This document shows positions 12,438 through 54,775 of a DNA stretch of 64,000 nt, piece by piece. Position numbers and translations under genes: made by a program. Below the pieces are notes generated by a model. It was not told the DNA's origin. It was given only the letters and a program-made list of their open reading frames with translations, and made no database searches. The stretch comes from a bacterium OL-1 (GTDB lineage Bacteria > Actinomycetota > Coriobacteriia > Coriobacteriales > Atopobiaceae): NCBI GenBank assembly GCA_000752675.2, contig LM994625.1, forward strand, positions 365,940 through 429,939, read 5' to 3'. How positions within the stretch are numbered: position 1 is the stretch's first letter; every line of letters starts with the position of its first letter.

Positions 12438-12500
12438 TGGGTCCTCCTCGCATCGGGCAACGTTCTTGCTGACTTGGTGCCGTAAACAATAAGTCTGCTT

Positions 12501-12519
12501 ACCAAACTTTTTGTTTGGT
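12501..12519 (-). promoter_or_regulatory. Palindromic operator candidate upstream of ygeY
   Basis: Exact palindrome ACCAAACTTTTTGTTTGGT with 7-bp arms around TTTTT, 64 nt upstream of the ygeY start. On the minus strand it is followed by CAGACTTATTGT, a possible -10 region. The core and the flanking AGTCTG recur upstream of the NCS2 permease, and the core recurs at ygeX. No transcription start can be proven from sequence. Confidence 0.6.
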
Positions 12520-12674
12520 TGACCTAATTAAAGCACGTGCGAGAGGGAATTCAAGGGCCTTTGGCAAACTGTTCACTTTTCTCGCAGACGGTCTTTTTGA
12601 CGCGGTGGACGGTGAGCGCGGAGGAGCGATTCTTCCCCGTGCAAACGTTGGGGCGGGGCGGCTCGGGGCGTGGC

Positions 12675-12819
12675 GCTACACATTCGGACCCGATTGCGTA
12701 TCCCGCGCAGGACGGTACAGGTTCGGGCGACGAATGCGTGTCGGCTCGCCACAGGTTCGTGACCGATTGCGTATCCCGCGCAGGACGCCACAGGTTCGGG
12801 GACCGAATGCGTGGCGGCG
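12675..12819. repeat. Tandem 73-bp repeat made of inverted 26-bp units
   Basis: Two copies (12675-12747 and 12748-12819) share CGATTGCGTATCCCGCGC plus the following AGGACG exactly. Each copy contains two imperfect palindromic units of the type ACAnnTTCG-n4/6-CGAnTGCGT. Similar units recur at 32501-32572 and 39753-39820. No coding content was recognised in the 12438-12898 gap beyond this repeat, the operator and the terminator module. Confidence 0.75.
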
Positions 12820-12885
12820 AAAGTCGCCGCCGGCCACGAAGAAGGCCCCGGCGACGAAATGCCGCCGGGGCCAAGGTCCCACGTT
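12809..12885. terminator. Terminator module, copy 1 (uninterrupted)
   Basis: Two stacked hairpins. The first is GGCGGCGA-AAG-TCGCCGCC. The second pairs GGCCCCGGCG (12844-12853) with CGCCGGGGCC (12863-12872). It follows the 3' end of the GH3 gene on the minus strand. The 77-bp module recurs with one mismatch at 17905-18043, where it is split by a 59-bp insertion. Confidence 0.75.
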
Positions 12886-12898
12886 ATTCTCGGCAGTG

Positions 12899-15685
12899 CT
12901 ACTGCTGCGCGCGCCAGCGCTTCATCTTCATGTGGCGACGCACGAAGTACGTGGCCAGCAGGACGATGATTGCCGCAAGCACAACCTCAACCGCGGTGAT
13001 CAGCGGACTCTGCCCAAACATCCCCACCGTAAACGTGCTCGAGGAGTTCGCCTCGGTATAGAGGATGTTGTGGCAAGCGTTACGCAGCGCCTGGTGCCCG
13101 GCGGCCGTGTCCAGCGTGTCGCTGGTAAGCATCTTGTCCTGAAGGAACGCGAGGTAGAGGTCGTTGCCCGCATGCAGCGCCCGGTTGATGTTCGAGGTGT
13201 CAGCGGCAAGCACGCAGTCCGTCACGACAGACCCGCGGAAGCCCCACTCGTTCCTCAGCACCTGGGTGAGCAGCGCGTGGCTCTCGGCAGTGGGCGTGGC
13301 ACCCAGGCGGTTGTAGGAGCTCATCATCGCCATGGCGCCGCCGTCCTTTACGGCAAGCTCGAACGGTCGCAGGTAGATCTCGCGCATTGACTGCTCGTTT
13401 GCCCAGGTCACAAGGCCACCGGCATCGCCACGGTGCGTCTCCTGGTCGTTAAGGGCAAAGTGCTTGACGTAGCAGTACACGCCCTGCGACTGGATGCCGC
13501 GGACCTCGGCAGCAACGATCTCGCCGGTGAGCAGACCGTCCTCGCTCACGTACTCGTAGTTGCGGCCGCCAAAGGGCGAGCGGTGCGTGTCGGCACCGGG
13601 AGCGTACAGGCCGCCGACCTTGAGCGCCGTTGCCTCCTGGGCAAACAGCTCGCCCACACGCTGCGCGAGCTCCTTGTTCCAGGTGTAGCCAAGCACGCTC
13701 TGGCCCGTGAGCTGCGTGCCGTTGTAGCTCGCCATGATGTTGTTCACCCCGTTGGGACCGTCGCACTCGACAATCGCGGGCTTGCCCACGCTCTTGGCCG
13801 AGAAGGTCATCCAGCCGCCGTTGGAGACGAGCATCTTCTGCTCGTTAAGCGTCATCTGGTCGAGGAGCTTGTCCCACTGGGGGTCGTCATAGCTCAGACC
13901 GGTCATGTCGGCCAGGGTAAGGCCGTTCTTCGCGCCATAGGTCACGTCGTCGACATTGGGGTTCTCGACTGGCGCGGGGTTGTCCAGCGCGTCCTTGATT
14001 TCGGCAGGGGCCTCCTTCTCGGCAGGGGCCATCGTGGGGAAGGTGCCGGCCCAATCCGCACGCGAGAGGTACGTGACGCCGCCGCCAAAGCTCACGTCGT
14101 CAAACTGGTTGGTCGCAGCCACACCGTCAGTGGAGCGAGCGCCGTCATTGGCGTCGTTGTAGATGTAGTCACGGTCGATGGTCACCGTGCGGGTGTCCAC
14201 CACGTCGTGAGAGTTGCGACGCAAGCTCACCTGGTAGTCGCCAGCCTCCAGAACGTAGGCACCACCCGGGGCCTTGACCCCGGTGTAGTCGTAGCTCGCC
14301 ATGTCCTCGTGCGTCCAGCTGATCTTGAGCGTCTGGGTCTCCCCAGGCTCAAGCAGCTTAGTCTTGTCAAAGCCGGCGAGAACAACCGCGCTCTTCTCGA
14401 TGCCACCCGGCGTGTAGGGAGCGCTGTAGTAGGCCTCGACCACGTCCTTGCCCGCAACGTCGCCAGTGTTGGTCACGTCGACGGTCATCGTGATGGTGGT
14501 GCCGTCGTCCGAGAAGTCCGCGATCTTCTCGTCGAAGGTGGTATACGAGAGGCCGTAGCCAAACGGGTACTGAACCGTTGCGTCATAGTCGATGTAGCCG
14601 TCTGCCGCCGCGGTCTCGTAGTAGCGGTAGCCCACATAGATGCCTTCGGCATAGTCAACAAAGTGGACGTTCTCGGTGCCGGAAGTCGCATCACCAGAGC
14701 CCGCGAACAGGGACTGGTTGGTGTGCTGCACGTTGGTGTAGTCGTGCGCGCCAAAGTTGTAGTAGCTAGGTGCGCTCTCCGCCTCGTACGGGAAGGTGTC
14801 CACGGTGCGACCGCTTGGGTTCACGGCACCGGTGAGCACCTTGCCAATGGCGTCGCAGCCCGTCGCGCCAGGCGTGCCCACCCACAGGGCGGCGTCCACC
14901 TGGGGGGCGTCAACAAAGCCAAGCTCCATGGCATTGGGGCTGTTGAGCACCACGATCACGCGATCGAAGTTGCCCTCGACCATGGCGAGAAGGTCCTCCT
15001 CGTTGGGCGAAAGCTCAAGGTAGCTGCGGCCGGCCTCGGAGCCCTCATAGGCGGCCATGTCCGTGGGAAGGTCAAAACCTTCGCCGCCCTTGCGGGTGAG
15101 CACCACGATCGCCGTGTCCGAGTACGTCTTTGCGTCGTCGATGACGTCCTGGGTGTAGCTGGACTGCGGCAGCTCGTAGAGGTTCCAGTCCGTGCCCACA
15201 ATGCCCATGTCCTTGGCAGCAGTTGCGTTCTCCTCGTAGAACTGCTCAAGGTTGGGGTTCGCGGAGAGGCCCGCGTCCTCAAGTCCCTGGTAGAAGGTCA
15301 CGTTCTTGCTGGTGTCGCCAGCTCCGGAGCCCGTCCCGCCATAGCTGAAATTGTTTCCAGCCGTCGAGCCAAACACGTTCACCTTGGTCACGCCCGAAAG
15401 CGGCAGGGCGTCGTTCTCGTTCTTGAGCAGCGTGACGCCTTCCGCCTCCACCTCCTCGGTGATGTCGCTCGTGGCCTGACTTGCCTGCCGCACCTCGGTG
15501 GATGCCATGTCCGGCTTGGTAGTGAACGTGGTCACGAGGTCAAAGTACGGAGACACCACGATGCCCACCACAAGCGTCACCGCAACCACGAGCACCGACA
15601 GGATGCACATGATCACAAACAGCGCCTTCTTTGGACGCTTTACCGACTTGGTCGGCTTGGCCTGCTTGTCCTTCTCGTCTGCCAT
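12899..15685 (-). CDS. Membrane-anchored, circularly permuted GH3 beta-glucosidase
   Basis: 928 aa. The domain order is inverted relative to standard GH3. After an N-terminal helix (residues about 18-42) comes the alpha/beta sandwich (GVTLLKNENDALPLSG; DWNLYELPQSSYTQDV), then a fibronectin III-like domain (VDVTNTGDVAGKDVVEAYYS), then the TIM barrel near residues 630-900. In the barrel, YVKHFALNDQETHR carries substrate ligands and GSVVTDCVLAADTSN carries the nucleophile aspartate. A second helix (ITAVEVVLAAIIVLLATYFV) ends the protein, so the catalytic part is probably extracytoplasmic and tethered at both ends. ATG at 15685 has AAAGGGGAGAG upstream. It is divergent from a LytTR/GHKL two-component system. 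The sugar substrate is unknown. Confidence 0.9.
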   Translation of the reverse strand: MADEKDKQAKPTKSVKRPKKALFVIMCILSVLVVAVTLVVGIVVSPYFDLVTTFTTKPDMASTEVRQASQATSDITEEVEAEGVTLLKNENDALPLSGVTKVNVFGSTAGNNFSYGGTGSGAGDTSKNVTFYQGLEDAGLSANPNLEQFYEENATAAKDMGIVGTDWNLYELPQSSYTQDVIDDAKTYSDTAIVVLTRKGGEGFDLPTDMAAYEGSEAGRSYLELSPNEEDLLAMVEGNFDRVIVVLNSPNAMELGFVDAPQVDAALWVGTPGATGCDAIGKVLTGAVNPSGRTVDTFPYEAESAPSYYNFGAHDYTNVQHTNQSLFAGSGDATSGTENVHFVDYAEGIYVGYRYYETAAADGYIDYDATVQYPFGYGLSYTTFDEKIADFSDDGTTITMTVDVTNTGDVAGKDVVEAYYSAPYTPGGIEKSAVVLAGFDKTKLLEPGETQTLKISWTHEDMASYDYTGVKAPGGAYVLEAGDYQVSLRRNSHDVVDTRTVTIDRDYIYNDANDGARSTDGVAATNQFDDVSFGGGVTYLSRADWAGTFPTMAPAEKEAPAEIKDALDNPAPVENPNVDDVTYGAKNGLTLADMTGLSYDDPQWDKLLDQMTLNEQKMLVSNGGWMTFSAKSVGKPAIVECDGPNGVNNIMASYNGTQLTGQSVLGYTWNKELAQRVGELFAQEATALKVGGLYAPGADTHRSPFGGRNYEYVSEDGLLTGEIVAAEVRGIQSQGVYCYVKHFALNDQETHRGDAGGLVTWANEQSMREIYLRPFELAVKDGGAMAMMSSYNRLGATPTAESHALLTQVLRNEWGFRGSVVTDCVLAADTSNINRALHAGNDLYLAFLQDKMLTSDTLDTAAGHQALRNACHNILYTEANSSSTFTVGMFGQSPLITAVEVVLAAIIVLLATYFVRRHMKMKRWRAQQ

Positions 15686-15832
15686 CTCTCCCCTTTCCCC
15701 TGGGATCTTGCCTTCCCGCCGCATAATCGCGGTGGGGGTTCCGTCAGATGGCCCCATGGTGGTCAAGACGCCCGCAGGTTGGGGGCTGCTGTCATAATCG
15801 GGTGAGAGCCACGACTTAGTTGGGAGGCAACC

Positions 15833-16549
15833 GTGGCGTACCGAATTCTTATCGTGGAAGACTCCCCCGCAGAGGCGGACGTCTTGCGAGGGCATCTAGA
15901 CCGCTATGCAGCAGAGAGGGGTCTCTCGTTTGCCGTGACCGTGCTCTCCTCGGCGGTGGAGTTCGTGAACGCAAGCCACCCGGCGGACCTGATCTTCATG
16001 GACATCGACCTGCCTGGCATCAACGGCATGGAGGCGGCACAGATCCTTCGCGGCTACGACGAGCAGACGCCGCTGGTGTTTGTGACCAACCTGGCACAGT
16101 ACGCCATAAAGGGGTACCAGGTGGACGCCCTCGACTTCATGGTGAAGCCCGTCGCCTACGATGACTTCTCCCTTCGCATGGACCGTGCCATGCGCATGGT
16201 CAGGCGGACGTCCAAGGGCACCGTTGCCATCCCAACGCCCGACGGCATCCGCGTGGTGCGCCTCGATGACGTGCTCTACGTGGACATCGTCAAGCACGAC
16301 CTGCACTACCACCTTGCCGGGGAGCCCAACCCCCTGCGGGTGCGCGGCACCATCACCAAGGTTGCGGAGGAGCTTGCCGAGAAGGGCTTCCTCAAGATTG
16401 CCGCCAGCTGCGTCATCAACATGGCCCAGGTGGCGCGGATACGGGCGACCTCGGTGGTCATGTCGGACGGCACGGAGCTGTTCTTTAGCAGGTCGCAGCG
16501 AAAGGCGGCGCTCGAGCGCCTCACGGCATACGTGGGAAGGAGCGCGTAA
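15833..16549 (+). CDS. LytTR-family response regulator
   Basis: 238 aa. A receiver domain (residues about 3-125) has ILIVEDSP, the phospho-acceptor in LIFMDIDLPGING (Asp57) and the DFMVKPVAYDDF lysine. A LytTR DNA-binding domain follows (about 138-235; VRLDDVLYVDIVKHDLHYHL, FLKIAASCVINMAQVARI). GTG at 15833 is chosen because TGGGAGG lies 5 nt upstream. The stop overlaps the start of the kinase gene (TAATG). Divergent from the GH3 gene, which is its most obvious candidate target. Confidence 0.93.
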   Translation: MAYRILIVEDSPAEADVLRGHLDRYAAERGLSFAVTVLSSAVEFVNASHPADLIFMDIDLPGINGMEAAQILRGYDEQTPLVFVTNLAQYAIKGYQVDALDFMVKPVAYDDFSLRMDRAMRMVRRTSKGTVAIPTPDGIRVVRLDDVLYVDIVKHDLHYHLAGEPNPLRVRGTITKVAEELAEKGFLKIAASCVINMAQVARIRATSVVMSDGTELFFSRSQRKAALERLTAYVGRSA

Positions 16550-17880
16550 TGGGCGAGGTCGCAACTGCAGCCCTGAGCACCACGTTCCTTCTCGCACGCG
16601 TCATCTTTGGGATTGGCCTGTTTGCAGTTGCCCTCGAGCCGCGAGAGCACTTTGGCAGGAGGCTCGCTCTTGCGGCGATTCTGTGCATCGCCGCCCTGAC
16701 GCTTCTCTTCTGCCTCGAGGGAATGCTGCCCGGCATCTCCCGAACTCAGGCATATGCCGGCGAGGAGGTGTTCTTCTCCGCACTGCTCGTTGCATGCTCC
16801 GTCGCCGTGACCTACCTCTTTGACGCCTCCATCTGGACGGCGCTCTTCTGCTGCTCGGCGGGATATGCCATCCAAAACCTTGCCTCCGGCGTGGGCGAGG
16901 CGGCATGGCTGCTCATGGAGGGAACCGGACCGGAGGCGGCCAGGGGGCGAGAAGTGCCACTGGGGACGTTCGCCCTCATCACCCTAGTAGTCACCGTTGC
17001 AACGTACGCGATTGCATATCTGCTGATAACCCGTCGGCTGAGCCGCCGCGGCCTGGAGCAGGTGAGCGACCGCTCGATGATCGCAATGATGGCCGTGGTC
17101 ATGCTCATGGTCATTGGGTTTGACCTGGTGATCAAGAGCCTCTGCGAGATGGGCATACCAGTAGCATACGCGCTGATGCTCCGGTTTGTGCATGGGTTCA
17201 TCTGCGTGTTCACGGTTTGGATGGAATACGAGCTGCTGGTCAACCGCAAACTCGCATCCGAGAAGGACACGACCGAGCGAGTGCTCGCCGAGCGCGAGCG
17301 CCAGTACGAGCAGAGCCGCGAGAGCATCGAGGCGATCAACATCAAGTGCCACGACCTGCGCCATCAGATACGAGCGCTGGCAGACGGGGGTGCCGTGGTT
17401 GATCCGGCCGCGTTAGCAGACGTCGCGCGTGAGGTCGACGTGTACGATGCGGCAGTTCACACGGGCAACGAGGCCCTGGACACAATACTTACCGAGAAGA
17501 GCCTGGTCTGCCAGCGCGAGGGCATCACGCTCACCTGCGTGGCAGACGGGTCGGCACTCGACTTCATGGCGCCGGCAGACATCTACGCGCTCTTTGGCAA
17601 CGCCCTGGACAACGCCGTCGAGGCCGCTCGCGGGGCGAGTCGGCGGTCGATTTCCGTGGTAGTGCGGCGCACGATGGGAGTCACGTCCGTAAGCGTCGAG
17701 AACTACTACGACCTGGGCGCCCAGCCCACCTTTGAAGACGGCCTGCCGCAGACGACCAAGGCGGACAAGGCCAACCACGGGTTTGGCATGCGCTCAATGC
17801 GCGCGATAGCGGAGCGCTACGGCGGCGCGCTGGTGGCCCGTGCAGAGGATGGAACGTTCTCTCTCGACATCATGATGTAG
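16549..17880 (+). CDS. GHKL-type sensor histidine kinase (AgrC/ComD-like)
   Basis: 443 aa. The N-terminal half (about residues 1-215) is six or so membrane helices. A short coiled segment (KDTTERVLAERERQYEQSRE) leads to a phosphoacceptor region (NIKCHDLRHQIRAL) and a GHKL ATPase domain (NALDNAVEAARG; NHGFGMRSMRAIAERYGG). This architecture is that of peptide- or small-molecule-sensing kinases paired with LytTR regulators. It overlaps the regulator gene by one base (TAATG). The signal is unknown; no propeptide gene is visible nearby. Confidence 0.92.
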   Translation: MGEVATAALSTTFLLARVIFGIGLFAVALEPREHFGRRLALAAILCIAALTLLFCLEGMLPGISRTQAYAGEEVFFSALLVACSVAVTYLFDASIWTALFCCSAGYAIQNLASGVGEAAWLLMEGTGPEAARGREVPLGTFALITLVVTVATYAIAYLLITRRLSRRGLEQVSDRSMIAMMAVVMLMVIGFDLVIKSLCEMGIPVAYALMLRFVHGFICVFTVWMEYELLVNRKLASEKDTTERVLAERERQYEQSRESIEAINIKCHDLRHQIRALADGGAVVDPAALADVAREVDVYDAAVHTGNEALDTILTEKSLVCQREGITLTCVADGSALDFMAPADIYALFGNALDNAVEAARGASRRSISVVVRRTMGVTSVSVENYYDLGAQPTFEDGLPQTTKADKANHGFGMRSMRAIAERYGGALVARAEDGTFSLDIMM

Positions 17881-17904
17881 GTGCGGAGATCGACGCACCT
17901 CGGA

Positions 17905-18043
17905 GCGTGGCGGCGAAAGTCGCCGCCGGCTACGAAGAAGGCCCCGGCGACGAAATTGAACTGCCTCCCATTTCTCGGACTTTACTTACTTGTCCAAGAA
18001 ATGGGAGGCAGTTCAAATGCCGCCGGGGCCAAGGTCCCACGTT
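17905..18043. repeat. Terminator module, copy 2, split by a 59-bp insertion
   Basis: Same 77-bp module as 12809-12885 (76 of 77 positions identical once the insert is removed), in the same orientation. It lies between the convergent kinase gene and the membrane-protein gene at 18069. The insertion sits in the loop of the GGCCCCGGCG/CGCCGGGGCC hairpin. Together the two copies form direct repeats around the GH3 and two-component block. Confidence 0.85.
17957..18015. mobile_element. 59-bp MITE-like inverted-repeat insertion
   Basis: 23-bp terminal inverted repeats (17957-17979 and 17993-18015; 22 of 23 match; ends TGAACTGCC and GGCAGTTCA) around a 13-bp centre. It is flanked by AAT on both sides (17954-17956 and 18016-18018). 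The uninterrupted module at 12.8 kb has a single AAT at the same site, so this looks like an insertion with a 3-bp target duplication. It has no coding capacity. Confidence 0.8.
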
Positions 18044-18068
18044 CTTCTCGATAGACGCTCCAAAGACG

Positions 18069-18380
18069 CTATCGCCGGTGCGTCACCGCAGCGCGCACGC
18101 GACCGCGCGGGTCTTTCACAAGAAGCGTCACAACCCAGATGACCAGTCCAAGAGCAACCACGCAAACACCCAGGAACGCGTCGTTGGAAAGTTGCTCGCC
18201 AGACGGCTGGAAGATAGCCACGCCCTCCTGGAGATACTCGGCCACCGCGTCGACCAGCCACATGAGCGACGCGCCCCAGAACATGAGGCACGGCAGACCC
18301 AAGCAGAGGTCGTTGTCGCGGCGCAAGTACCACACAAGCGTGAAGGCGACAGCCACCAGGACGGTGATGGCAAGCGTCAT
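18069..18380 (-). CDS. Small membrane protein, unknown
   Basis: 103 aa with about three hydrophobic helices: ITVLVAVAFTLVWYL, LPCLMFWGASLMWLVDAVAEY and FLGVCVVALGLVIWVVTLLV, ending in a basic tail (DPRGRVRAAVTHRR). I do not recognise the family. It begins 3 nt after the gene at 18384-18758, so the two form an operon and probably act together in the membrane. No enzymatic motif is visible. Confidence 0.75.
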   Translation of the reverse strand: MTLAITVLVAVAFTLVWYLRRDNDLCLGLPCLMFWGASLMWLVDAVAEYLQEGVAIFQPSGEQLSNDAFLGVCVVALGLVIWVVTLLVKDPRGRVRAAVTHRR

Positions 18381-18383
18381 CGG

Positions 18384-18758
18384 CTACACCTCAAGCGCCG
18401 GGGCCTGCTCGGAGGCGGCGCGCTGCTCAATCGCGTTCGCGACGGCGCACAGGCCACCCCAGGCGGCAGTTACCACGACGGCCATCGCGACGCCGGTCGT
18501 CGCCATCTCGCCGAACATCGCCGCAGCGTCCGCAGGCGTGGCCATGGCAGAAAGGAACGGGAAGAACGGCACGACCTCGCCATGCCAGACGTGCTCAAAG
18601 GCGAGAAGGGCGCTGCCGCCCCAAAGCATCTTGGAGAGCCAGCCGAGACGCTCGACACGGCGGGCGCATGCCTCGGTGTTCTCGCTGCTCTTCTTGGCCT
18701 TCTGCTCGATGACCTTCACAACGGCGCCCTCGGCGGCGGGTACGACAAAGCAAGCCAT
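18384..18758 (-). CDS. Small membrane protein, unknown (MACFVVPAAE type)
   Basis: 124 aa. It starts MACFVVPAAEGAVVKVIEQK, then has a charged helix with KKSSENTEACARRVERLGW, and two hydrophobic segments (KMLWGGSALLAFEHVW; TTGVAMAVVVTAAWGGLCAVA). ATG at 18758 is chosen because GAAGGGA lies upstream and the protein-like composition begins there. First gene of the two-gene operon with 18069-18380. The function is unknown. Confidence 0.75.
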   Translation of the reverse strand: MACFVVPAAEGAVVKVIEQKAKKSSENTEACARRVERLGWLSKMLWGGSALLAFEHVWHGEVVPFFPFLSAMATPADAAAMFGEMATTGVAMAVVVTAAWGGLCAVANAIEQRAASEQAPALEV

Positions 18759-19050: not shown

Positions 19051-19079
19051 CTCTCCGGCGCAAAAATGACGCCGGAGAG
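19051..19079 (-). terminator. Terminator after the BceB-type permease gene
   Basis: 10-bp arms CTCTCCGGCG (19051-19060) and CGCCGGAGAG (19070-19079) with an A-rich loop, just past the permease stop. The U-tract is weak. Confidence 0.55.
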
Positions 19080-23998: not shown

Positions 23999-25222
23999 CT
24001 ACTCGGCCTTCTCGCTCTGCCACGCGCCGTCCCAGACAATCTGGCGGTAGCGGACGGGGTCGGTGTCGCCCTCGGTCGAGAAGAGCAGCACCTGGGAGTC
24101 GGGGCCAAGCTCGAGGGCCTCGCGCAGCTCGGCGTAGGCAGGGTCGGTCATGAGGGTGGAGATGACGCCCATGCCCACGGCGCCGGACTCGCCGGAGGTG
24201 ACCGCCGGGTCGCCCTTCACAGGTGCGGCCAGCATGCGCATACCCTTGGAGGAGACCCAGTCGGGGCAGCTCACGAAGGCGTCCGCGTGGTTGCGCAGGA
24301 TGTCCCAGCCAATGGTGTTGGGCTCACCGCAGGCAAGGCCGGCCATGATGGTCTGGAGGTCGCCACCCACAATGCGCGGGTTACCATCAGCCGCAACGGC
24401 GCCCTGGTAGAGGCAGTCGGCGGCGCCGGCCTCCATGATCACGAACTTGGGCGGGTTGCTCGGGAAGAGGTTAGTGAAGAAGCCCACCATGGAGCTTGCG
24501 AGCGAGCCCACGCCGGCCTGGACAAAGACGTGGGTGGGACGGTTGACCTCAAGTTGGCGCAGCTGGTCTGCCGCCTCGGCGGCCATGGTGCCGTAGCCCT
24601 GCATGATCCAGGACGGAATCTTGGTGTAGCCATCCCAGGCGGTGTCCTGCACGATCACGCCGTGCTCGGTCTCTTCGGCCTCCTTGGCGGCAAGGCGCAC
24701 GCAGTCGTCGTAGTTGAGCTCCTCGATCGTGACCTTGGCGCCCTCCTTGGCGATGTTGTCGAAGCGGGTCTTCGTGGAGCCCTTGGGCATGTGCACCACG
24801 GCATTCTGGTGCAGACGGTGGGCGGCCCAGGCAACGCCGCGGCCGTGGTTGCCGTCGGTGGCGGTGAAGAAGGTCGCGTGGCCAAAGTCATGCTCGAGCT
24901 GGTCGGACGTGAGGTAGTCAAAGTCGCAGTCCGCCACATCGCGGCCGGTCTCCTCGGCGATGTAGCGAGCCATGGCGAAGGAGCCGCCCAGGACCTTGAA
25001 CGCGTTGAGGCCAAAGCGGTAGCTCTCGTCCTTCACGTAGAGGCCGCCCAGACCAAGGCGGTTAGCCATACCGGAGAGGTTGGCAAGCGGGGTCACGGAG
25101 TACTGCGGGAAGCTCTTGTGGAACGCGCGGGCCTTGGCAACGTTCTCCAGGCTCATGACCTGCAGGTTCTTGTCCTCGCTCTTGGGCATGTGATTGGTGA
25201 CCCACTTGAACTTAGGCTCCAT
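23999..25222 (-). CDS. ygeX: Diaminopropionate ammonia-lyase YgeX
   Basis: 407 aa fold-type II PLP enzyme, full YgeX length. The PLP lysine is in RFGLNAFKVLGGSFAMA (near residue 76). The ATDGNHGRGVAWAA phosphate loop and the glycine-rich VQAGVGSLASSMVG are intact. It cleaves 2,3-diaminopropionate to pyruvate and two ammonia through a 2-aminoacrylate intermediate. In purine-degrading anaerobes ygeX is a standard member of the pathway set. It is a single-gene unit here, divergent from a guanine deaminase, with an operator-like site 67 nt upstream of its ATG. Confidence 0.95.
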   Translation of the reverse strand: MEPKFKWVTNHMPKSEDKNLQVMSLENVAKARAFHKSFPQYSVTPLANLSGMANRLGLGGLYVKDESYRFGLNAFKVLGGSFAMARYIAEETGRDVADCDFDYLTSDQLEHDFGHATFFTATDGNHGRGVAWAAHRLHQNAVVHMPKGSTKTRFDNIAKEGAKVTIEELNYDDCVRLAAKEAEETEHGVIVQDTAWDGYTKIPSWIMQGYGTMAAEAADQLRQLEVNRPTHVFVQAGVGSLASSMVGFFTNLFPSNPPKFVIMEAGAADCLYQGAVAADGNPRIVGGDLQTIMAGLACGEPNTIGWDILRNHADAFVSCPDWVSSKGMRMLAAPVKGDPAVTSGESGAVGMGVISTLMTDPAYAELREALELGPDSQVLLFSTEGDTDPVRYRQIVWDGAWQSEKAE

Positions 25223-25288
25223 GGTGCTCCCCTCTCTCTGCGTCGGCTCCCGACGCTTGCTGGACCAGATAAGAAAAAGTGTCTTACA

Positions 25289-25306
25289 GCCAAACTTTTT
25301 GTTAGC
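25289..25306. promoter_or_regulatory. Operator candidate between ygeX and guaD
   Basis: Imperfect palindrome GCCAAACTTTTTGTTAGC. The CCAAACTTTTTGTT core is identical to that upstream of ygeY (12502-12515). It could serve ygeX (minus) and the divergent guanine deaminase (plus). Confidence 0.55.
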
Positions 25307-25387
25307 ACATCAATTACACCACTTCCAAAGCACATTGCAAGGGCTATTGTCACCCCTCCGGCAAAAGGTTGGTCGCAGGCTTTGGAC

Positions 25388-26849: not shown

Positions 26850-26912
26850 GAGTTTTCCCTTATCTCATTTATCCTCATCGATGTGAGAAGGGGTAACTCC
26901 CTCTGTCTCATC
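26850..26912. repeat. Degenerate palindromic repeat spanning the permease 3' end
   Basis: Arms AGAGTTTTCCCTTATCTCAT and GTGAGAAGGGGTAACTCCCT resemble degraded GAGACAAAGGGA-family elements. The right half is inside the coding region of the NCS2 permease and encodes its last dozen or so residues. Confidence 0.5.
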
Positions 26913-28271
26913 AAGCGGCTTGAGGTTGCGCTGCTCGGGCGTATTGTCCTCGGGCGGCAGGACGCTGTTCAGGATGATTGCCATGACGGCGCAGGGCGTG
27001 ATGGCCGAAGTGCCAAAGATCGTGGAGATCCACTCGGGCATGCCGGGACCGGCCAGCGAGCCGGATACCTGCGCAATGCCAATGCCAAATGCCACCGAGA
27101 TGCCAAAGACGGTGCAGGCACGCGGGGTGAGGCCGTCCTTCACCAGGATTCGGATGCCGTTCAGTGTGATGGTGCCAAAGACGCTAATGGTGGCGCCGCC
27201 AATGACCGGCTGGGGAATCATGAGCAAGAGCGCCGAGAGCTTGGGGCAGAGTCCCGCGGCGAGAAACACAAACGCCGCGCCGCCAAAGACCCACTTGTTG
27301 ATGACCTTGGTGCTCACGATGATGCCCACGTTCTGGCCAAAGGCCGAGGTGGGAAGGCCACCGAAGAAGGACGAGATAATGCTCACCATACCTTGGGCCT
27401 TGATGGCGCCGCCAATCTCGCGCTCGTTGGGCATGCGGTCCAGCGAGCCCGCGGATGCCGCGGAGAGGTCGCCGATGAGCTGAACGTTGACCATCACGTA
27501 GACCACGCCGAGCGTGATGCAGGCAGCCGGGTTGAACTCGATGCCATACGGCATGAATCGCGGCAGGGAGAACCACCCAGCGCTGAGCACCTCTGAGCCG
27601 TCGACCATGCCAAACGGGATGGCAACAATGCAGCCAATGATGATGCCAAAGAAGATCGAGCCGAGCTTGAGCACGCCCTTGCCAAAGTTGGCCAGGGCGA
27701 AGACCACGGCAAAGGTTATGAGGCCAACGATCCAGTTATAAATGCCTCCAAAGTTGGCCGAGCCAGCGCCGCCCGCCATGTACCTGATTGCCGTGGGGTA
27801 CAGCGAAACACCGATGGTGAAGATAACGGTACCGGTTACCAGAGGCGGAAAGAGCCGTCGCACCTTGCTGTAGAAGATGCCAAAGAGAATGGCGACGATG
27901 CCGCCCACCAGCTCTGCGCCGAGAAGTACCGAGAAGCCAAACTGAGCACCCACCGCCTGGAACGCGGGCAGGAACGCGAACGAGACGCCGGTAAGGATGG
28001 GGAGCCCCGCGCCGATGCGGCTGAAGAGCGGGAACTGCTGGAGCAGCGTGTCGATGGCCGAGAGGATGAGCGCCACCTGGATGATGGCGGTCTCCTGCTC
28101 CTGCGTAAACCCGCAGGTGGTGGCTATCATCATGGCCGGCGTGATAACGCCGGCGAAGGAGGCGAGGACGTGCTGGAGGGACATGGGGACGAGCGACCCC
28201 ACCGGCGGTAGTCCTTCCCGCTTAAAGAGCGACTCGTCGAGCTCCTGCTCTGCCTGTGCCCGCACTGCCAT
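26865..28271 (-). CDS. NCS2 family xanthine/uric acid permease
   Basis: 468 aa nucleobase:cation symporter-2 protein with about 14 membrane helices. The family motif is in the region TSAFGQNVGIIVSTKV, preceded by NEREIGGAIKAQGMVS; the amino-terminal PMSLQHVLASFAGVITPAMM is the usual substrate-site helix. It would import xanthine, uric acid or uracil with protons; the exact substrate cannot be assigned. ATG at 28271 has GGGGGAGG upstream. The C-terminal tail (about DETEGVTPSHIDEDK) appears to derive from a palindromic repeat. Monocistronic, with an operator-like palindrome 96 nt upstream. Confidence 0.9.
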   Translation of the reverse strand: MAVRAQAEQELDESLFKREGLPPVGSLVPMSLQHVLASFAGVITPAMMIATTCGFTQEQETAIIQVALILSAIDTLLQQFPLFSRIGAGLPILTGVSFAFLPAFQAVGAQFGFSVLLGAELVGGIVAILFGIFYSKVRRLFPPLVTGTVIFTIGVSLYPTAIRYMAGGAGSANFGGIYNWIVGLITFAVVFALANFGKGVLKLGSIFFGIIIGCIVAIPFGMVDGSEVLSAGWFSLPRFMPYGIEFNPAACITLGVVYVMVNVQLIGDLSAASAGSLDRMPNEREIGGAIKAQGMVSIISSFFGGLPTSAFGQNVGIIVSTKVINKWVFGGAAFVFLAAGLCPKLSALLLMIPQPVIGGATISVFGTITLNGIRILVKDGLTPRACTVFGISVAFGIGIAQVSGSLAGPGMPEWISTIFGTSAITPCAVMAIILNSVLPPEDNTPEQRNLKPLDETEGVTPSHIDEDK

Positions 28272-28366
28272 GTGAGCCTCCCCCGAGCGCCCCTGCGCCC
28301 CGTCGGATGTCCTTGACGTGCTCAAGCGTGCCACAGCTCGCTTGGCCGCGACAAATTATTAGTCTG

Positions 28367-28391
28367 ATTGCCATACAAATTGTTTGGCAAT
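28367..28391 (-). promoter_or_regulatory. Palindromic operator candidate upstream of the NCS2 permease
   Basis: 25-bp near-perfect palindrome with arms ATTGCCATACAA and TTGTTTGGCAAT around a central A (11 of 12 pairs). The preceding AGTCTG has the same spacing as at ygeY. On the minus strand it is followed by CAGACTAATAAT, a possible -10 region. Confidence 0.6.
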
Positions 28392-36338: not shown

Positions 36339-36374
36339 GACAAGCTCCCTCTCCTAGAAACCTGTATTGCTGCA

Positions 36375-36387
36375 TAACAAAATGTTA
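36375..36387 (-). promoter_or_regulatory. Operator candidate upstream of xdhA
   Basis: Exact palindrome TAACA-AAA-TGTTA, 36 nt upstream of the xdhA ATG. It matches the AACAA/TTGTT core seen at other purine promoters in this window. Confidence 0.5.
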
Positions 36388-36528
36388 GTGACCCCGCGAG
36401 GGGCCGCGGTGAGGCAGCGGCGAATGGTCACAAACCGCTGCCGACCGTTCATCTATCTGCAATCGTCTCACATACCCTCTGAGCTGGGCGTTATTCACGT
36501 AAAAAAGCAACGCCCTCTAGAGCAAAGA

Positions 36529-49420: not shown

Positions 49421-49432
49421 CTCTCCTCCTCC

Positions 49433-49903
49433 CTAGAAGTCCTTGGCAATGATGCCGAACGCATCGTGGATGACCCCACGCGGGCATTTGGACGCGCACA
49501 TGCCGCAGGAGATGCAGTCCTCCTGGCTGATGACGGCAAGGTTATCGGTCACGTGGACCGCGTCCGACGTGCAGGCACGCTCGCAGGCGCCGCAGGCGAT
49601 GCAGCTCACCTGGCACACCGCGCGTGCGGCAGAGCCAGTCTCGTGGTTGGAGCAGAGCACCTGGATGCGCTGGTGGCGCGGGACAATATCGATGATGTGC
49701 TGCTCGCACATGCGAGCGCACAGGCCACAGCCAATGCAGGCCTCGCGGTTCACATGCGCCACGCCGTTCTCATTAAGTTCGATTGCATGCATGCGACAGG
49801 CGGCAACGCATGAGCCGCAGCCGATACAACCCTCTGAGCAGCGGTCGGGCGCGGGTCCCCCGGCGCACCTCACCACCGCAACCATGTCTCTTTTTCGTGC
49901 CAT
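49433..49903 (-). CDS. Polyferredoxin (four [4Fe-4S] motifs)
   Basis: 156 aa, four CxxCxxCxxxC motifs: CIGCGSCVAAC, CIGCGLCARMC, CIACGACERAC and CISCGMCASKC. There is no membrane helix or signal. ATG at 49903 is preferred, with GGGGGA upstream; an in-frame ATG 15 nt earlier is possible. It lies between ygfK and the FAD-less xanthine dehydrogenase, so the natural inference is electron transfer between those two. Confidence 0.88.
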   Translation of the reverse strand: MARKRDMVAVVRCAGGPAPDRCSEGCIGCGSCVAACRMHAIELNENGVAHVNREACIGCGLCARMCEQHIIDIVPRHQRIQVLCSNHETGSAARAVCQVSCIACGACERACTSDAVHVTDNLAVISQEDCISCGMCASKCPRGVIHDAFGIIAKDF

Positions 49904-49928
49904 AACTCGGTCCCCCATATGAGCTACA

Positions 49929-49954
49929 GCGGGACGGCCGCACGGCCGCCCCGC
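49929..49954 (-). other. Hairpin between ygfK and the ferredoxin gene
   Basis: 12-bp arms GCGGGACGGCCG (49929-49940) and CGGCCGCCCCGC (49943-49954), one mismatch, tiny loop. There is no U-tract; probably an RNA processing or partial termination element. Confidence 0.5.
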
Positions 49955-49989
49955 CAGTGTGATCTTCGAGGCGCGAAGGCGCCTGGTGC

Positions 49990-52986
49990 CTACTTCCTGG
50001 CGAGCAGATAGCCGTAGTCGTCACGCACGGCCACGATGGTCGCGCGGACCGCTTCGGGAAGGCCGCAGGCGACGTCGTCCACATCGTAGACTGCCGTAGT
50101 TCCGTCGAGCCTCACGAGCATGCCACCCTCGACGGGAAGGAAGCCCTCGTTCTGGGAGTCGTCGAAGTCCTCCCTGCTCCAGAACAGGGTGAGCTTATCG
50201 CGATAGGGCTTACCCTCGGAGTACGGGCAGAACACGGCGCAGTTGCCGCACTCGTTGCACATGCCGTCCACGTGAACGATCTGGCGCTCGCGCATGCCGG
50301 GCACGCGAATGGCAACGTTGGCGCGGTTGGGGCAGACCTCGCAGCAGGTCTCGCACACGGTGGCGCAGCCAAGGCAGCGCGTGTGGACGAGCGACGCGAC
50401 GTCAGCCTCGAGGGTTCCTCGGGACGCGAGAGGTGTCTCGTAGCAGGGGTCGACGTTTGCCTCGCCCTTGGCGTCGAAGGAAGCACCCGCAATGGCCGTT
50501 GTGACGGTCATTGCGTCGGCGATGGCCTTAACAACGGTGGCCGGACCACGACGGGCGTCGCCGGCGGCAAAGACGTGCGACACGCTGGTCTCGAGGGAGT
50601 CCGAGACAACGGGACGTCCCTTCTCGTCCAGCTCGCAGCCGGTGGCCTGGTAGAGACCCTGCTCGATGCGCTCGCCCACGGCAGTGATGACTGCGGTGGC
50701 AGGCACGCCCACGGTCTCGCCCGTAGGCTCGGGGGCGCGACGGCCAGAGGCATCAGGCGCACCAAGGCGCATGACCTCGCAGGTCAGCGTGCCGTTGGCA
50801 AGGTCGCCCGGCGAGAGGAGCTCCATGAACTCCACGCCGTCCTCGAGCGCCATGACAAGCTCTTCCTCGTCGGCGGGCATGTAGCGACGGGTGCGGCGGT
50901 AGACCAGGCGCACGTGCTCCACGCCGGGCACGCGCTTGGCGGCACGCGCCACGTCCATGGCGGTGTTGCCGCCGCCGATGACCACCACGTCAGAGCCGAG
51001 CTTGCACTGGGCAGGGTCCTCCTTGAAGTCGCGCAGGAAGTCGATGGCGTCAAGCGCCTCGCCGCTGCGCAGGGCCGGACGGCCCGGCGCCCAGGCGCCA
51101 ATTGCCACCACGACGTCGGTGAAGCCCTGGTCGAGAAGGTCGCGCGCGTTGGTTACCTCGACGCCCGTCTTGAACGTAGCGCCATATGCCGAGCAGAGCT
51201 CAACATCGTGATCGATGGCCTCGTCAGAGATGCGGAAGCCGGGAATCACGTGGCGAACGATGCCGCCGAGCTGGCCGGTGCGCTCGAACACGGTGACGTC
51301 CACGCCGGCGCGCGAGAGGAACGACGCCGCGGCAAGACCGGCAGGGCCAGCGCCCACGACGGCCACCTTGCGCCCAGTCACGCTACCACGCGCGGAGAGC
51401 GTGGGCAGGACCTCTGCCAGGCCATTCTCGGCAGCCAGGAGCTTGAACTCGCGAATGTGCACGTGCTCCTCGTAGTAGTTGCGCATGCAGGAGTTTCCGC
51501 AGGTGTGCGGGCAGATGGTGCCCGTGGTGAAGGGAAGCGCGTTGCGCTCGAGGATGATGTTGAGGGCATCGGCGTAGCGGCCCTCCTCGCAGGCGCGAAG
51601 ATAGCCAGGGATGTCCTGCTCGATGGGGCAGTCCTCGCGGCAGGGAGCCGTGAAGCAGTCAATGAGGGGCAGCTCGTGGCCCACGTGACGCTCGGGCGTA
51701 GGCTTGACGGGCTTGCGGTAGCGCGGGTTGGTGAGGGCGTCGTCCACGATGGCGGCAACCTTGGCGGGGTCAACGCCCGAGAAGGGCTTCTCGTCGATGC
51801 CGGCGAGGGCCTCGTCAATCTGGCCAAGGTGCTGGTACCCACCGGGCTTGAGGAGCGTGGTTGCCACGGTGACGGGCCAGATGCCCGCGTCGACGAGCGA
51901 GCGAACGTTGAGGGCGTCCGCACCACCGGAGAACGAGATGCGCAGGCTGCCGTCGAACTCGTCGGCAATGCGCTTGGCAAGCGAGACGGTAAGCGGGTAA
52001 AGCGAGCGGCCCGACATGTACATCTCGTCGCTGGGTAGCTCGGAGCGGGTGACGTCCACCGGGAAGGTGTTGGTGAGCTTGACGCCAAACTCGACGCCGC
52101 GCTCCTTTGCCAGCGCGATGAGGCGGTTGAGCATGGGCACGGCGTCGACCCACTGCAGGTCCTCGTTGAAGTGGTGCTCGTCGAAGACGATGTAGTCGAA
52201 GCCCAGCGAGTCGAGCGTCTTACGCGCGTACTCATAGCCCAGGAGCGTGGGGTTGCACTTGATGTAGGTGTTCAGGCCCTTCTCGGTGATGAGGTGCGTC
52301 GCGATGCGCTCGATCTCGGCCGGCGGGCAGCCGTGGAGCGTGGACTCAGTGACGGAGCGGGAGACGCACGGCGAGATGGAGTCGACAAACGCGGCGTCAA
52401 CGTGCTGGAAGCGGTCGAGGTTGGCCTTGGCCCACGCAATGGCCTCCTGGAAGACAGGGGTGTTGGAGGCGTCCTTCATGTTGTTGATGTAGGTGTCGAC
52501 CTTCTCGCCCTTGATGCCCTCGAGGTCGTAGCCAACCGACATGTTGAAGACGAAGCCATCGGGGTCGCCAAAGCCAAACTCCTGGGCAAGGAGCTTGCAG
52601 GCAACCCACGCCTTGACGTACTCGTCAAAGGCGCCGGGCACAGTGAGCTCGGTGGACCACTCGCAGTTGTAGCCCTCGTCAGCAGCAAGGATGCAGGGCT
52701 TGTTCACGCAGGCAGAGAGCTCGGCGCCGTCCATCTTCTGGACGGTCTTGAGCTCGAAGAAGCGAGCGCCAGTGACGTAGGCGGCAATGATGTTCTGCGC
52801 GAGCTGGGTGTTGGGACCTGCAGCCGGGCCAACGGGCGACTCGACCTTCTCGCCAAAGATGGGACGGGCGTGGCCGCCGAGCTTGGCGAGACGAGACTCG
52901 CCAAAGATGGTTCCCTGGGTCTTCTTCTCGGTAAGGATCCAGTCCATGAGCTGGTCGAACGGGATGGGACGCATGATGTCGCTCAT
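49990..52986 (-). CDS. ygfK: YgfK: selenate reductase-like flavin/iron-sulfur oxidoreductase
   Basis: 998 aa multi-domain oxidoreductase. Residues about 1-420 form a dihydroorotate-dehydrogenase-like barrel (PVGPAAGPNTQLAQN; YIKCNPTLLGYEYA). Cysteines at 444-454 and 492-500 (CPHTCGNSC) form the GltD-type iron-sulfur domain. GxGxxG motifs for FAD (VAVVGAGPAGLAAA, near 541) and NAD(P)H (VVVIGGGNTAMD, near 667) follow. The C-terminus has CLGCATVCETCCEVC (871-885) and CNECGNCAVFC (910-920). It would move electrons between NAD(P)H, flavin and ferredoxin. ATG at 52986 has GGAGAGGA upstream. E. coli ygfK was linked to selenate reduction, but its constant place in purine clusters argues for purine redox chemistry. 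Confidence 0.93.
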   Translation of the reverse strand: MSDIMRPIPFDQLMDWILTEKKTQGTIFGESRLAKLGGHARPIFGEKVESPVGPAAGPNTQLAQNIIAAYVTGARFFELKTVQKMDGAELSACVNKPCILAADEGYNCEWSTELTVPGAFDEYVKAWVACKLLAQEFGFGDPDGFVFNMSVGYDLEGIKGEKVDTYINNMKDASNTPVFQEAIAWAKANLDRFQHVDAAFVDSISPCVSRSVTESTLHGCPPAEIERIATHLITEKGLNTYIKCNPTLLGYEYARKTLDSLGFDYIVFDEHHFNEDLQWVDAVPMLNRLIALAKERGVEFGVKLTNTFPVDVTRSELPSDEMYMSGRSLYPLTVSLAKRIADEFDGSLRISFSGGADALNVRSLVDAGIWPVTVATTLLKPGGYQHLGQIDEALAGIDEKPFSGVDPAKVAAIVDDALTNPRYRKPVKPTPERHVGHELPLIDCFTAPCREDCPIEQDIPGYLRACEEGRYADALNIILERNALPFTTGTICPHTCGNSCMRNYYEEHVHIREFKLLAAENGLAEVLPTLSARGSVTGRKVAVVGAGPAGLAAASFLSRAGVDVTVFERTGQLGGIVRHVIPGFRISDEAIDHDVELCSAYGATFKTGVEVTNARDLLDQGFTDVVVAIGAWAPGRPALRSGEALDAIDFLRDFKEDPAQCKLGSDVVVIGGGNTAMDVARAAKRVPGVEHVRLVYRRTRRYMPADEEELVMALEDGVEFMELLSPGDLANGTLTCEVMRLGAPDASGRRAPEPTGETVGVPATAVITAVGERIEQGLYQATGCELDEKGRPVVSDSLETSVSHVFAAGDARRGPATVVKAIADAMTVTTAIAGASFDAKGEANVDPCYETPLASRGTLEADVASLVHTRCLGCATVCETCCEVCPNRANVAIRVPGMRERQIVHVDGMCNECGNCAVFCPYSEGKPYRDKLTLFWSREDFDDSQNEGFLPVEGGMLVRLDGTTAVYDVDDVACGLPEAVRATIVAVRDDYGYLLARK

Positions 52987-53061
52987 TGCGATTCCTCTCC
53001 AGAAACGCATTTCCGTGGGGACGTGAGGCGTGCGCGGCGCCACGGGATCCGCGCACGTCGT

Positions 53062-53090
53062 GGCAGCGGCGACCTTGGAGCGCCGCTGCC
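53062..53090 (-). other. Hairpin between ssnA and ygfK
   Basis: 10-bp arms GGCAGCGGCG (53062-53071) and CGCCGCTGCC (53081-53090). There is no U-tract; likely an mRNA stability or partial termination element. Confidence 0.5.
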
Positions 53091-53100
53091 GGGAAGGTGC

Positions 53101-54456
53101 CTAGTACTCGCGGTCGTTGAGCTCTCCCCAGAGCTTCTTGGACTGGTCGAGCACAAAGGCATCAATCCTATCCTTGTCGATGTCCGTGAACTCACGGTCA
53201 TGGTAGACCACGCGGCCGTTCACGATAGTGGTACGGCAGTCGTGACCCTCGACGCCAAAGAGGATGTGGCCATCGATGTTCTCCGCGCCAATGGGCGTGG
53301 GCGCCGGATAGTCAAACACGGCGACGTCCGCGGCGGCACCGGGCGCAAGCACGCCCAGGGGCTTGCCCTGCGGCTTGGAGGCGAAGTACATGTTGGCGAC
53401 CTCGGCGTTGTTCTTGAAGAGCATGGTCATGGCCTCGCCCCAGGCCACGTTGGGCAGCGCGGAGTTGAGGCGCTGCAGGGGCACGAAGGCCTTGAGGGAC
53501 TGCAGCATGTCGTGGGTGTAGGCGTCGGTGCCCATGGTCACGGTGATGCCACGCTTGAAGAACTCGAGCACCGGGGCAGTGCCCACGGCGTTGTTGGCAT
53601 TGGACTGCGGGTTGTTGACGATCTTGGTGTGGGTCTCGGCAACAACGTCCATGTCGGCGGGGGTGATGTGGATGCAGTGGCCGAGCATGGTCTTCTCGCC
53701 CAGGATGCCGTGGTCGAGGAGGCGGTGGATCGACGTGCAGCCGTGCTTCTGGGCCGAGTCGTAGACGTCGTTCATGCCCTCGCACACGTGGATGTGGAAG
53801 CCGGTGAGGCCGTTGTTCGCCTCGACCATGCGGTCGAGCGCCTCGTCCGGCAGCGTGAAGAGGGCGTGACCGCCAAACATGGCGGCGATCATGTCGGAGT
53901 CCTGGCTGGCGGCCCAGCGGGCGAAGTCGGCGTTCTCCTGAATGGACTGATCGAGCTTCTCCTTGCCGTCACGGTCAGAGACCTCATAGCACAGGCAGGC
54001 ACGCATGCCCATCTCCTGCGCCACGTCCTTGATGGCAAAGAGGGAGCCGGGAATCTCGCGGAAGCTTGCGTGGTGATCGAAGATGGTGGTCACGCCATTG
54101 CGGAACGACTCCATCATGGTCACGTACGCGCAGGCACGCGTGCCATCGAGCGTGAGGTGACGGTCGATGTTCCACCACTGCTGCTCGAGGTTCTCGAGGA
54201 AGTTGGTGGGGTTGCAGCCCTTGATGGCAAGGCCGCGCGCCAGACCGGAGTAGATGTGGGTGTGGCAGTTGATAAGACCGGGCATGATAAGGCCGCCGTG
54301 GGCATCGATGAACTCTGCCGTGGGGTAGGCGGCATCCATCTTGGCACGCGTGCCAACTGCCACGATCTTGTCGTGGTCGATGACAACGGCACCGTCCTCG
54401 ATAAAGGGCACCTGGGGATCCCTGGTTACGACCCGACCGTTTCCAACAAGTAGCAT
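53101..54456 (-). CDS. ssnA: SsnA family aminohydrolase
   Basis: 451 aa amidohydrolase. Metal ligands: MPGLINCHTHIYSGLARG (His65, His67), GLTGFHIHVCEGM, MLGHCIHITPADM and TVTMGTDAYTHDML. SsnA proteins are of unknown substrate but always occur with ygfK and the Se-dependent XDH; they resemble guanine and chlorohydrolase-type deaminases. ATG at 54456 has AAGGAGGAG upstream. First gene of the ssnA-ygfK-ferredoxin-XDH operon, divergent from the YheO-type regulator. Confidence 0.93.
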   Translation of the reverse strand: MLLVGNGRVVTRDPQVPFIEDGAVVIDHDKIVAVGTRAKMDAAYPTAEFIDAHGGLIMPGLINCHTHIYSGLARGLAIKGCNPTNFLENLEQQWWNIDRHLTLDGTRACAYVTMMESFRNGVTTIFDHHASFREIPGSLFAIKDVAQEMGMRACLCYEVSDRDGKEKLDQSIQENADFARWAASQDSDMIAAMFGGHALFTLPDEALDRMVEANNGLTGFHIHVCEGMNDVYDSAQKHGCTSIHRLLDHGILGEKTMLGHCIHITPADMDVVAETHTKIVNNPQSNANNAVGTAPVLEFFKRGITVTMGTDAYTHDMLQSLKAFVPLQRLNSALPNVAWGEAMTMLFKNNAEVANMYFASKPQGKPLGVLAPGAAADVAVFDYPAPTPIGAENIDGHILFGVEGHDCRTTIVNGRVVYHDREFTDIDKDRIDAFVLDQSKKLWGELNDREY

Positions 54457-54681
54457 AGGACCTCTCCTCCTTGCTACATGCCGCAGATCAGCTACGGCCC
54501 AACCTGTGTTCATCGCGGCCCTCTCATGCCGCGACGGCCGGGCGTTGCGCGAACGCGATTGCGCCGCATGGGCACCCGACTACCCAGCTGCAAACGAAGC
54601 GCAGGTACAAGGTCCTTCCCCGTTGGCCTCTCCCTGCAAATCACCGTATTGGCGAATCTTCGCACTTCTTGTAATACAACC
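54457..54681. other. Leader region of ssnA
   Basis: About 225 bases between the ssnA start and the operator-like site. It has a GCGGC/GCCGC inverted pair near 54519-54541 but I recognised no riboswitch or small gene in it. Confidence 0.35.
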
Positions 54682-54695
54682 TAACAAATATTTTG
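54682..54695 (-). promoter_or_regulatory. Operator candidate upstream of ssnA
   Basis: TAACAAATATTTTG, similar to the AACAA/TTGTT sites at other purine promoters; on the minus strand it is followed by GGTTGTATTAC, a possible -10 region. If it marks the promoter, the leader is about 200 nt. Confidence 0.4.
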
Positions 54696-54775
54696 CTTCA
54701 AATTGGCGTCCGGCTCGTCCCGGTCTGGAGAACATCGGCGTACGGTCGATTGCCGGTGTGGACGGTAACGTTATA

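Follow-up and report, generated by a model that had tools for sequence, protein, structure and literature searches.

The 64,000-nucleotide stretch of DNA analysed here (the window; contig LM994625.1 of the Atopobiaceae bacterium OL-1, positions 365,940 to 429,939, G000:C9:365940-429939, in a genome of 2.46 Mb) carries a reductive uric-acid gene cluster with ygeW, ygeY, ygeX, purine permease genes, xdhABC-type genes, an xdhD-like gene, ygfK and ssnA. On the 3' side of this cluster lies a gene for a YheO-type protein, and beyond it moaA, moaC, modB and modC. Our comparisons across genomes make it likely that a regulon for the anaerobic breakdown of uric acid and purines has the palindrome CCAAAC-AAAAA-GTTTGG as its primary operator (O1) and the YheO-type protein as the repressor bound there. 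The genes and sites concerned are the following.

11055..12437, minus strand: ygeY, target (NCBIfam PRK13004.1 / TIGR03526)
12502..12518, minus strand: O1, proposed primary operator of ygeY, CCAAACAAAAAGTTTGG in gene orientation; exact site, at an equal position in other genera
23999..25222, minus strand: ygeX, diaminopropionate ammonia-lyase, target (NCBIfam TIGR03528)
25290..25306, minus strand: proposed O1 of ygeX, GCTAACAAAAAGTTTGG; two mismatches, kept within the genus
26865..28334, minus strand: NCS2 permease, target (NCBIfam ncs2 above cut-off, pbuX under cut-off)
28371..28387, minus strand: proposed O1 of the NCS2 purine permease gene, CCAAACAATTTGTATGG; exact site
55125..55775, plus strand: YheO-type regulator (PAS_6 + HTH_22) from domain searches, proposed operator binder
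G000:C9:430530-430546 (L003:1501-1517; would-be window 64591-64607): exact operator of modA, 591 bp past the window end
G000:C10:675505-675521 (L005:1501-1517): exact operator of carA, ~250 bp 5' of carA and beside an IS3-like transposase frame

The first-pass annotation had pointed to palindromes before ygeY (ACCAAACTTTTTGTTTGGT, 12501-12519), ygeX (GCCAAACTTTTTGTTAGC, 25289-25306) and the NCS2 gene (25 bp, ATTGCCA...TGGCAAT, 28367-28391), and had aligned the AGTCTGnTTnCCAnAC flank between ygeY and NCS2 at 13 of 16 bases; all of this was verified, and its proposal of a common operator at purine genes is supported by the specificity of the exact site, by conservation and by a fixed promoter geometry. 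A whole-genome search with the exact pattern CCAWACNNNNNGTWTGG (CCAWAC-N5-GTWTGG), for which the same pattern read backwards served as control, returned four sites in the OL-1 genome, at ygeY, the NCS2 permease gene, modA and carA, and no control match. The ygeX site is a two-mismatch version of this pattern, and when up to two mismatches were allowed with an A/T centre, six places were found: the four exact sites, ygeX and one away from cluster-protein matches. All eight genomes of the genus carry the pattern (21 exact sites, control 0), and the 20 sites inspected were all at one of these four genes (ygeY in 7 genomes, carA in 6, NCS2 in 4 and modA in 3). In a family sample of 101 genomes, the exact pattern with any centre gave 66 sites versus 21 control matches (summed counts), and with an all-A/T centre 41 sites versus none, a filter that was picked after viewing the family site list and given its own control afterwards. 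Of these 41 sites 38 were inspected, and 37 precede ygeY, ygeX, NCS2, modA, carA or yheO. A looser pattern with one mismatch was not specific (45/38 matches versus 31/30 in the control).

The earlier statement that the palindrome is not seen at mod proved wrong, as an exact site lies 88 bp 5' of modA; it had been missed because the modA promoter falls outside the window. The dehydrogenases of the uric-acid pathway require molybdenum, and the molybdate transporter is likely co-regulated with these purine enzymes. The carA 17-mer or a one-base variant of it is present in seven of the eight genus genomes and precedes carA in six inspected loci; the seventh genome, G085, has the identical 17-mer at a locus outside the inspected set. 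As a family-wide target carA was rejected, since among 30 inspected loci a strong site was found only in three of the own genus, with a 10/12 site in L286 from another genus. The carA leaders of several genera (for example, L298, L300 and L304) share a recurring block, CCTTTAA...GGTAC...GAGATACC, and the carA locus L278 matched no Rfam family at gathering score.

Regulon membership was scored in the distinct upstream regions of 170 loci obtained from protein searches only, with at least 10 of 12 arm positions and an A/T-rich centre required; here and in the geometry counts below, near-identical promoters were collapsed and sequences short of upstream DNA were dropped. Sites were found before ygeX (25/34), NCS2 (9/18), ygeY (8/21), yheO (15/74) and modA (5/5), and rarely before ssnA (2/53) and carA (1/26), with one before the single HGDD region (1/1). 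None was found before ygfK (0/42), xdhD (0/31), xdhA (0/4) or the ABC-importer gene (0/6), and none inside genes; shuffles gave at most 0.025 per sequence. When all loci were counted, including those fetched for holding a site, the figures were 28/40 for ygeX, 17/29 for NCS2, 15/34 for ygeY, 21/86 for yheO and 5/5 for modA. The NCS2 counts take in sites of the common yheO-NCS2 intergenic region, and the modA rows represent the own genus plus a near one (L121), while no site is listed for modA of L213.

The strong sites stand in a regular arrangement with the promoter and with a second, weaker palindrome (O2). Read in gene orientation, the ygeY promoters consist of CTTGnnn, ~16 bp, TGnTTTAAT, ~8 bp, CCAAACAAAAAGTTTGG, 3 bp and GCAGACnnnnnGTnTAC, and the corresponding elements in the window are these.

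12549..12554, minus strand: putative -35 of ygeY, TTGAAT, with a 16-bp spacer, by reading
12527..12535, minus strand: putative extended -10 of ygeY, TGCTTTAAT, from row alignment
12482..12498, minus strand: candidate O2 of ygeY, degenerate, GCAGACTTATTGTTTAC, 20 bp from O1 and with 8/12 arm positions; it holds the AGACTTAT of the first-pass annotation
25335..25340, minus strand: putative -35 of ygeX, TTGCAA, with a 16-bp spacer, by reading
25313..25321, minus strand: putative extended -10 of ygeX, TGGTGTAAT, from row alignment
25270..25286, minus strand: candidate O2 of ygeX, TAAGACACTTTTTCTTA, 5/12 arm positions but palindromic
28351..28367, minus strand: candidate O2 of the NCS2 gene, TCAGACTAATAATTTGT, 20 bp from O1 and with 8/12 arm positions

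The score for an extended -10 peaks at -17 from O1 at both ygeY and ygeX (14 rows each), which was equalled in 0 of 500 shuffles each. Among the ygeY rows, 12 have TGnTTTAAT and one has TGCTTTACT, starting at -16 to -18 from O1; a good match is present in 13 of 14 ygeY rows (L084, with its site at 228 bp, resembles the site of another start and was retained) and in 12 of 14 ygeX rows, the two without a convincing one being L205 and L206. The palindrome of both genes begins 6-10 bp 3' of this conserved element, and O1 therefore spans roughly +2 to +18, a position that comes from sequence comparison, the start site itself being a prediction. Repressor operators often lie over or just past the transcription start, and a palindrome just 3' of a conserved promoter is what we found at ygeY and ygeX. 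For ygeY, ygeX and NCS2 with HGDD (14, 14 and 7 rows) the score for a further palindrome has its maximum precisely at +20 from O1, in each case against 0 of 500 shuffles; an offset of +5, which overlaps O1, scored equal to +20 in the first scan, and the final scan was restricted to positions beyond O1. O2 recurs at this distance in varied sequence, a further example being ACAAACTTTTTGTCTGGtaaTCAGACAAAAAGTCGGT in L241.

The first-pass annotation had taken a conserved AGACT-T/A-AT block for a promoter element and had proposed an activator at the -35 region. The block is no -10; it forms the left half of O2, and the conserved promoter lies upstream of the palindrome. For these reasons the activator model probably does not hold at ygeY and ygeX, whose layout is better explained by a repressor that uses two operators in tandem, phased at 20 bp. 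At NCS2 and modA activation remains compatible with the arrangement, as -10-like sequence stands 3' of O1: the clearest such sequence at NCS2 is AATAAT, and the modA O1 precedes TATAGT with no good -35. For NCS2 with HGDD there is no extended -10 peak at -17 (the best offset is -10, with 3 of 500 shuffles). The true start of the NCS2 permease is probably the ATG at 28269-28271 behind GGGGGAGG rather than the longest-frame GTG (28334). An in-frame TAG was flagged for ygeX of some genomes; the reading frame of the case checked, L237, terminates at an ordinary stop close to the C terminus.

That the regulator is the YheO-type protein, as had been suggested earlier, is indicated by co-occurrence, by linkage and by sites before yheO itself. 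Its N-terminal part matches the YheO-like PAS domain PF08348 (127.5 bits, cut-off 27, residues 8-120) and its C-terminal part HTH_22, PF13309 (69.3 bits, cut-off 29.6, residues 146-207). With an orthologue of at least 55% identity as the definition of a yheO-positive genome, and lower matches left out, the family sample divides into 47 yheO-positive and 54 yheO-negative genomes. All 41 A/T-centre sites lie in yheO-positive genomes versus 5 of the 25 other exact-pattern sites, and sites are borne by 28 of 47 yheO-positive versus none of 54 yheO-negative genomes (Fisher 1e-12, a test that ignores the relatedness of the genomes); 14 of 17 yheO-positive genera have a site. Three genomes of one genus that have ygeX and lack yheO (G031, G053 and G086) have no site, and their ygeX upstream regions score no better than shuffles. 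The stretches examined around 80 named yheO loci, from Atopobiaceae and from the Clostridia side, contain ssnA in 75 cases, ygfK in 65 and NCS2 in 52. Sites with at least 10 of 12 arm positions in the 15 yheO upstream regions compare with 0.009 per sequence in shuffles. It is thus very likely, as judged from these genomic comparisons, that the YheO-type protein is the regulator of the operator regulon.

In Thermophilibacter/Olsenella-type genomes an exact site stands 65-75 bp 5' of yheO, and in the Thermophilibacter group its right arm overlaps the likely -35 (TTGGCT/TTGGCA, by reading), which suggests autorepression in some Atopobiaceae. The own genus has only a degenerate palindrome, 5' of a conserved TGCTAGTAT.

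54973..54989, plus strand: candidate degenerate autoregulatory site of yheO, CCTTACATTCAATAAGC, 8/12; relatives read CCTTACATTTTATTAGG or CCTAACAATTTGTTAGA
54999..55007, plus strand: putative extended -10 of yheO, TGCTAGTAT, in 7 of 8 aligned genus or near-genus sequences; the eighth reads TGGTAGTAT

The last helix of the protein, SKYTLYxY, is invariant in 30 aligned orthologues (58-97% identity to the window protein), and the paralogues shown read SVPSVYRY or SVPTLYRY in the same helix. A second, divergent YheO-type gene (28-31% identity) with another recognition helix stands beside the first at L185:10709-11299, L191:10709-11299 and L106:8818-9462. For the AlphaFold model of the window protein (pLDDT 80.9, pTM 0.51) Foldseek gave matches, at low TM-scores, to PAS proteins and to VqmA; this is in line with a PAS fold and points to no ligand. 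A sequence search of the PDB with E up to 0.01 found no relative.

Several observations count against this interpretation. Nineteen of the 47 yheO-positive genomes have no exact A/T-centre site; for nine of them the ygeX locus was examined, and in all nine ygeX or ygeY is preceded by a site that reaches 10/12 or more. Likewise, 59 of the 74 distinct yheO upstream regions are without such a site, and the co-occurrence test ignores the relatedness of the genomes. There is no O2 peak at yheO or modA (15 and 3 rows), nor at carA (3 rows); the O2 of ygeX in the own genus is weak, with its five of 12 arm positions; and no clear -10 stands 5' of O1 at NCS2 or modA in the own genus. The one remaining inspected family site (G016:C1:354813-354829; L114:9914-9930), exact and with an A/T centre, lies 3' of a hydantoinase-like gene and has no recognised target after it. 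Finally, in 42 yheO-positive genomes outside the family, which were reached through Oscillospiraceae- or Clostridia-labelled or unlabelled yheO loci, AAAAA-type sites with up to two mismatches were no commoner than the control (28 versus 23, summed; seven of the 28 are one repeat in G113).

Outside the family, support comes from placement alone: nine matches in seven genomes sit at purine genes, namely at ygeX or a neighbouring ferredoxin-like gene in G142, G101, G109 and G106, at NCS2 in G130 (where another copy follows at 20 bp) and at purE in G110 and G121. The near-operators at purE, in two Pseudoflavonifractor-labelled genomes (L256:1501-1517 and L258:1501-1517), have one mismatch, directly follow a terminator-like hairpin and stand ~20-40 bp 5' of a purE-like gene, which is followed by purC. 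In G124 an exact CCAAACTTTTTGTTTGG (L249:1501-1517) and a weaker copy 73 bp away have no cluster-protein match nearby.

Four other explanations were weighed against a YheO-bound repressor. It is unlikely that the protein is an activator at the -35 region or has a dual role, repressing ygeY and ygeX and activating NCS2 and modA; the TATAGT and AATAAT sequences 3' of O1 at modA and NCS2 would suit it, but a conserved TTGnnn/extended -10 promoter lies 5' of O1 at ygeY and ygeX, and the presumed -10 belongs to O2, copies of which differ in sequence yet stand at +20. Slightly less probable still, in our judgement, is the same regulon with another binder, the YheO-type protein merely travelling with the cluster. 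Co-occurrence and linkage are indirect, and the many yheO regions without a recognisable site would agree with this view; against it stands the excess of sites before yheO over shuffles. The operator resembles the PurBox, which together with the purE sites gave ground for considering a Bacillus-type PurR, the single other family scanned. PurR was rejected as binder, as a search for its domain PF09182 found nothing in the OL-1 genome or in 10 genomes outside the family that bear sites; within the family 14 of 101 genomes match (10 above cut-off, 20.5-30.4 bits), and the frames that contain these matches are 635-941 aa long.

It is very improbable that the palindrome works in the RNA, as a 5'-terminal hairpin that acts in transcript stability or attenuation. 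The transcribed ygeY and ygeX sites could form a 6-bp stem with an A5 loop, and the A-run is in the sense orientation in nearly all copies, but of the 41 sites 10 have a W-position change in one arm and none has such changes in both arms (several of these sites are orthologous, so that independent events are few), and we rejected such an element for these one-sided arm changes without a compensatory pair. Moreover, the yheO sites of the Thermophilibacter group and the modA sites lie 5' of the likely -10, those of modA in the opposite orientation, and no Rfam family was found at gathering score in the window, L278 or L003. That the strong sites are a chance likeness among A+T-rich intergenic sequences is next to impossible, given the fixed promoter geometry and the absence of backwards-control matches with an A/T centre in 101 genomes; chance is compatible with the weak sites before xdhA, the AzgA gene and the ABC-importer gene.

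These weak sites, together with one before ssnA, had been proposed as members of the same operator family. The four have 8-9 of 12 arm positions, and among places in the window with an A/T-rich centre 23 reach 8/12 and eight reach 9/12, so that those before xdhA, AzgA and the ABC importer show no excess over chance. Across genera, with all loci counted, none of 15 distinct xdhA upstream regions holds a site of at least 10/12, nor does any of the 11 regions of the ABC-importer gene; for AzgA the figure is 1 of 7. The ssnA site, at 9/12 only, fares no better as the same operator, as at least 10/12 is reached in 2 of 61 regions.

54680..54696, minus strand: weak candidate site before ssnA, 9/12, within a genus-conserved block; unsupported across genera
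36373..36389, minus strand: weak candidate site before xdhA, 8/12, kept in the genus only

The xdhA, AzgA and ssnA sequences are kept within the genus and may still be functional in some way. The ssnA block GTAATACAACCTAACAAATATTTTGCTTCAAA (window 54650-54700) is nearly invariant in eight aligned sequences with variable flanks, and may be the ssnA promoter.

Starting from the sites, their conservation, their geometry and their co-occurrence with yheO, we propose that the YheO-type PAS_6/HTH_22 protein binds O1, which at ygeY and ygeX would cover ~+2 to +18, just past the extended -10. The weaker O2, 20 bp or two helical turns further on, would place two dimers on one face of the DNA, where they could cooperate. 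Without inducer, the protein would block the start of transcription or promoter escape, and it would be released when its PAS_6 pocket takes up a purine or a compound of the urate pathway. The regulon would also include the purine permease, modA (in the genus and one near relative), carAB (in the genus), purE (in two Bacillota-side genomes) and, in some Atopobiaceae, yheO itself. Most likely, then, a YheO-type sensor beside the cluster keeps the uric-acid breakdown genes off until purines are present. A wider reading is possible but more doubtful than not, namely that one PAS-type purine sensor moved with the reductive uric-acid cluster over two phyla, and that the tandem 20-bp-phased operator ties breakdown to uptake, modA, carAB and purE as a general purine-balance switch. 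If true, this would be a purine-balance switch of gut anaerobes, beyond a local catabolic repressor, in which carAB would link it to carbamoyl-phosphate and pyrimidine synthesis and purE, in some Bacillota, to purine synthesis.

The pathway is of medical interest for gout, and the predicted operator, regulator and mode make the trigger of gut uric-acid breakdown directly testable; they would, if correct, define the operator of a YheO-type protein and point to the probable class of its ligand. In the literature searched (open-access, with most subscription journals outside it), we found no description of this operator and no work on the control of reductive uric-acid clusters outside Escherichia coli. 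The proposed system is of an ordinary type, a local repressor regulon, but it serves a pathway whose control the searched texts do not describe.

Parts of the arrangement have counterparts elsewhere. The lac O1 and other repressor operators are centred near +11, and carAB of E. coli is under purine control by PurR; the proteins and sequences of both are unrelated to those of the YheO system. In Bacillus subtilis one regulator, PucR, likewise serves a purine-catabolic regulon; it belongs to a protein family unrelated to the YheO type and is called an activator in the title of a study on that regulon. The YheO-type DauR of Pseudomonas aeruginosa is a local repressor of a catabolic operon that responds to D-arginine, with no known purine link. 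Cj1387c of Campylobacter jejuni, also of the YheO type (PAS_6 + HTH_22), is described as a repressor of the adjacent gene, with its signal stated as not known, in the excerpted account of PMC4519771, in which the term 'binding site' is absent; unlike the window protein, it belongs to another pathway and has other neighbour genes. Work on reductive uric-acid breakdown by gut anaerobes is recent (PMC12507026, 2025), and the window enzymes are those of the pathway in the excerpted account given there, whose main text is without the terms 'regulator' and 'YheO'. In the same account the ygeV-ygeW region of E. coli is mentioned with a Crp-binding site, and its uric-acid cluster has XdhD, YgfK, SsnA, YgeY and YgeX in common with the cluster described here (PMC12507026).

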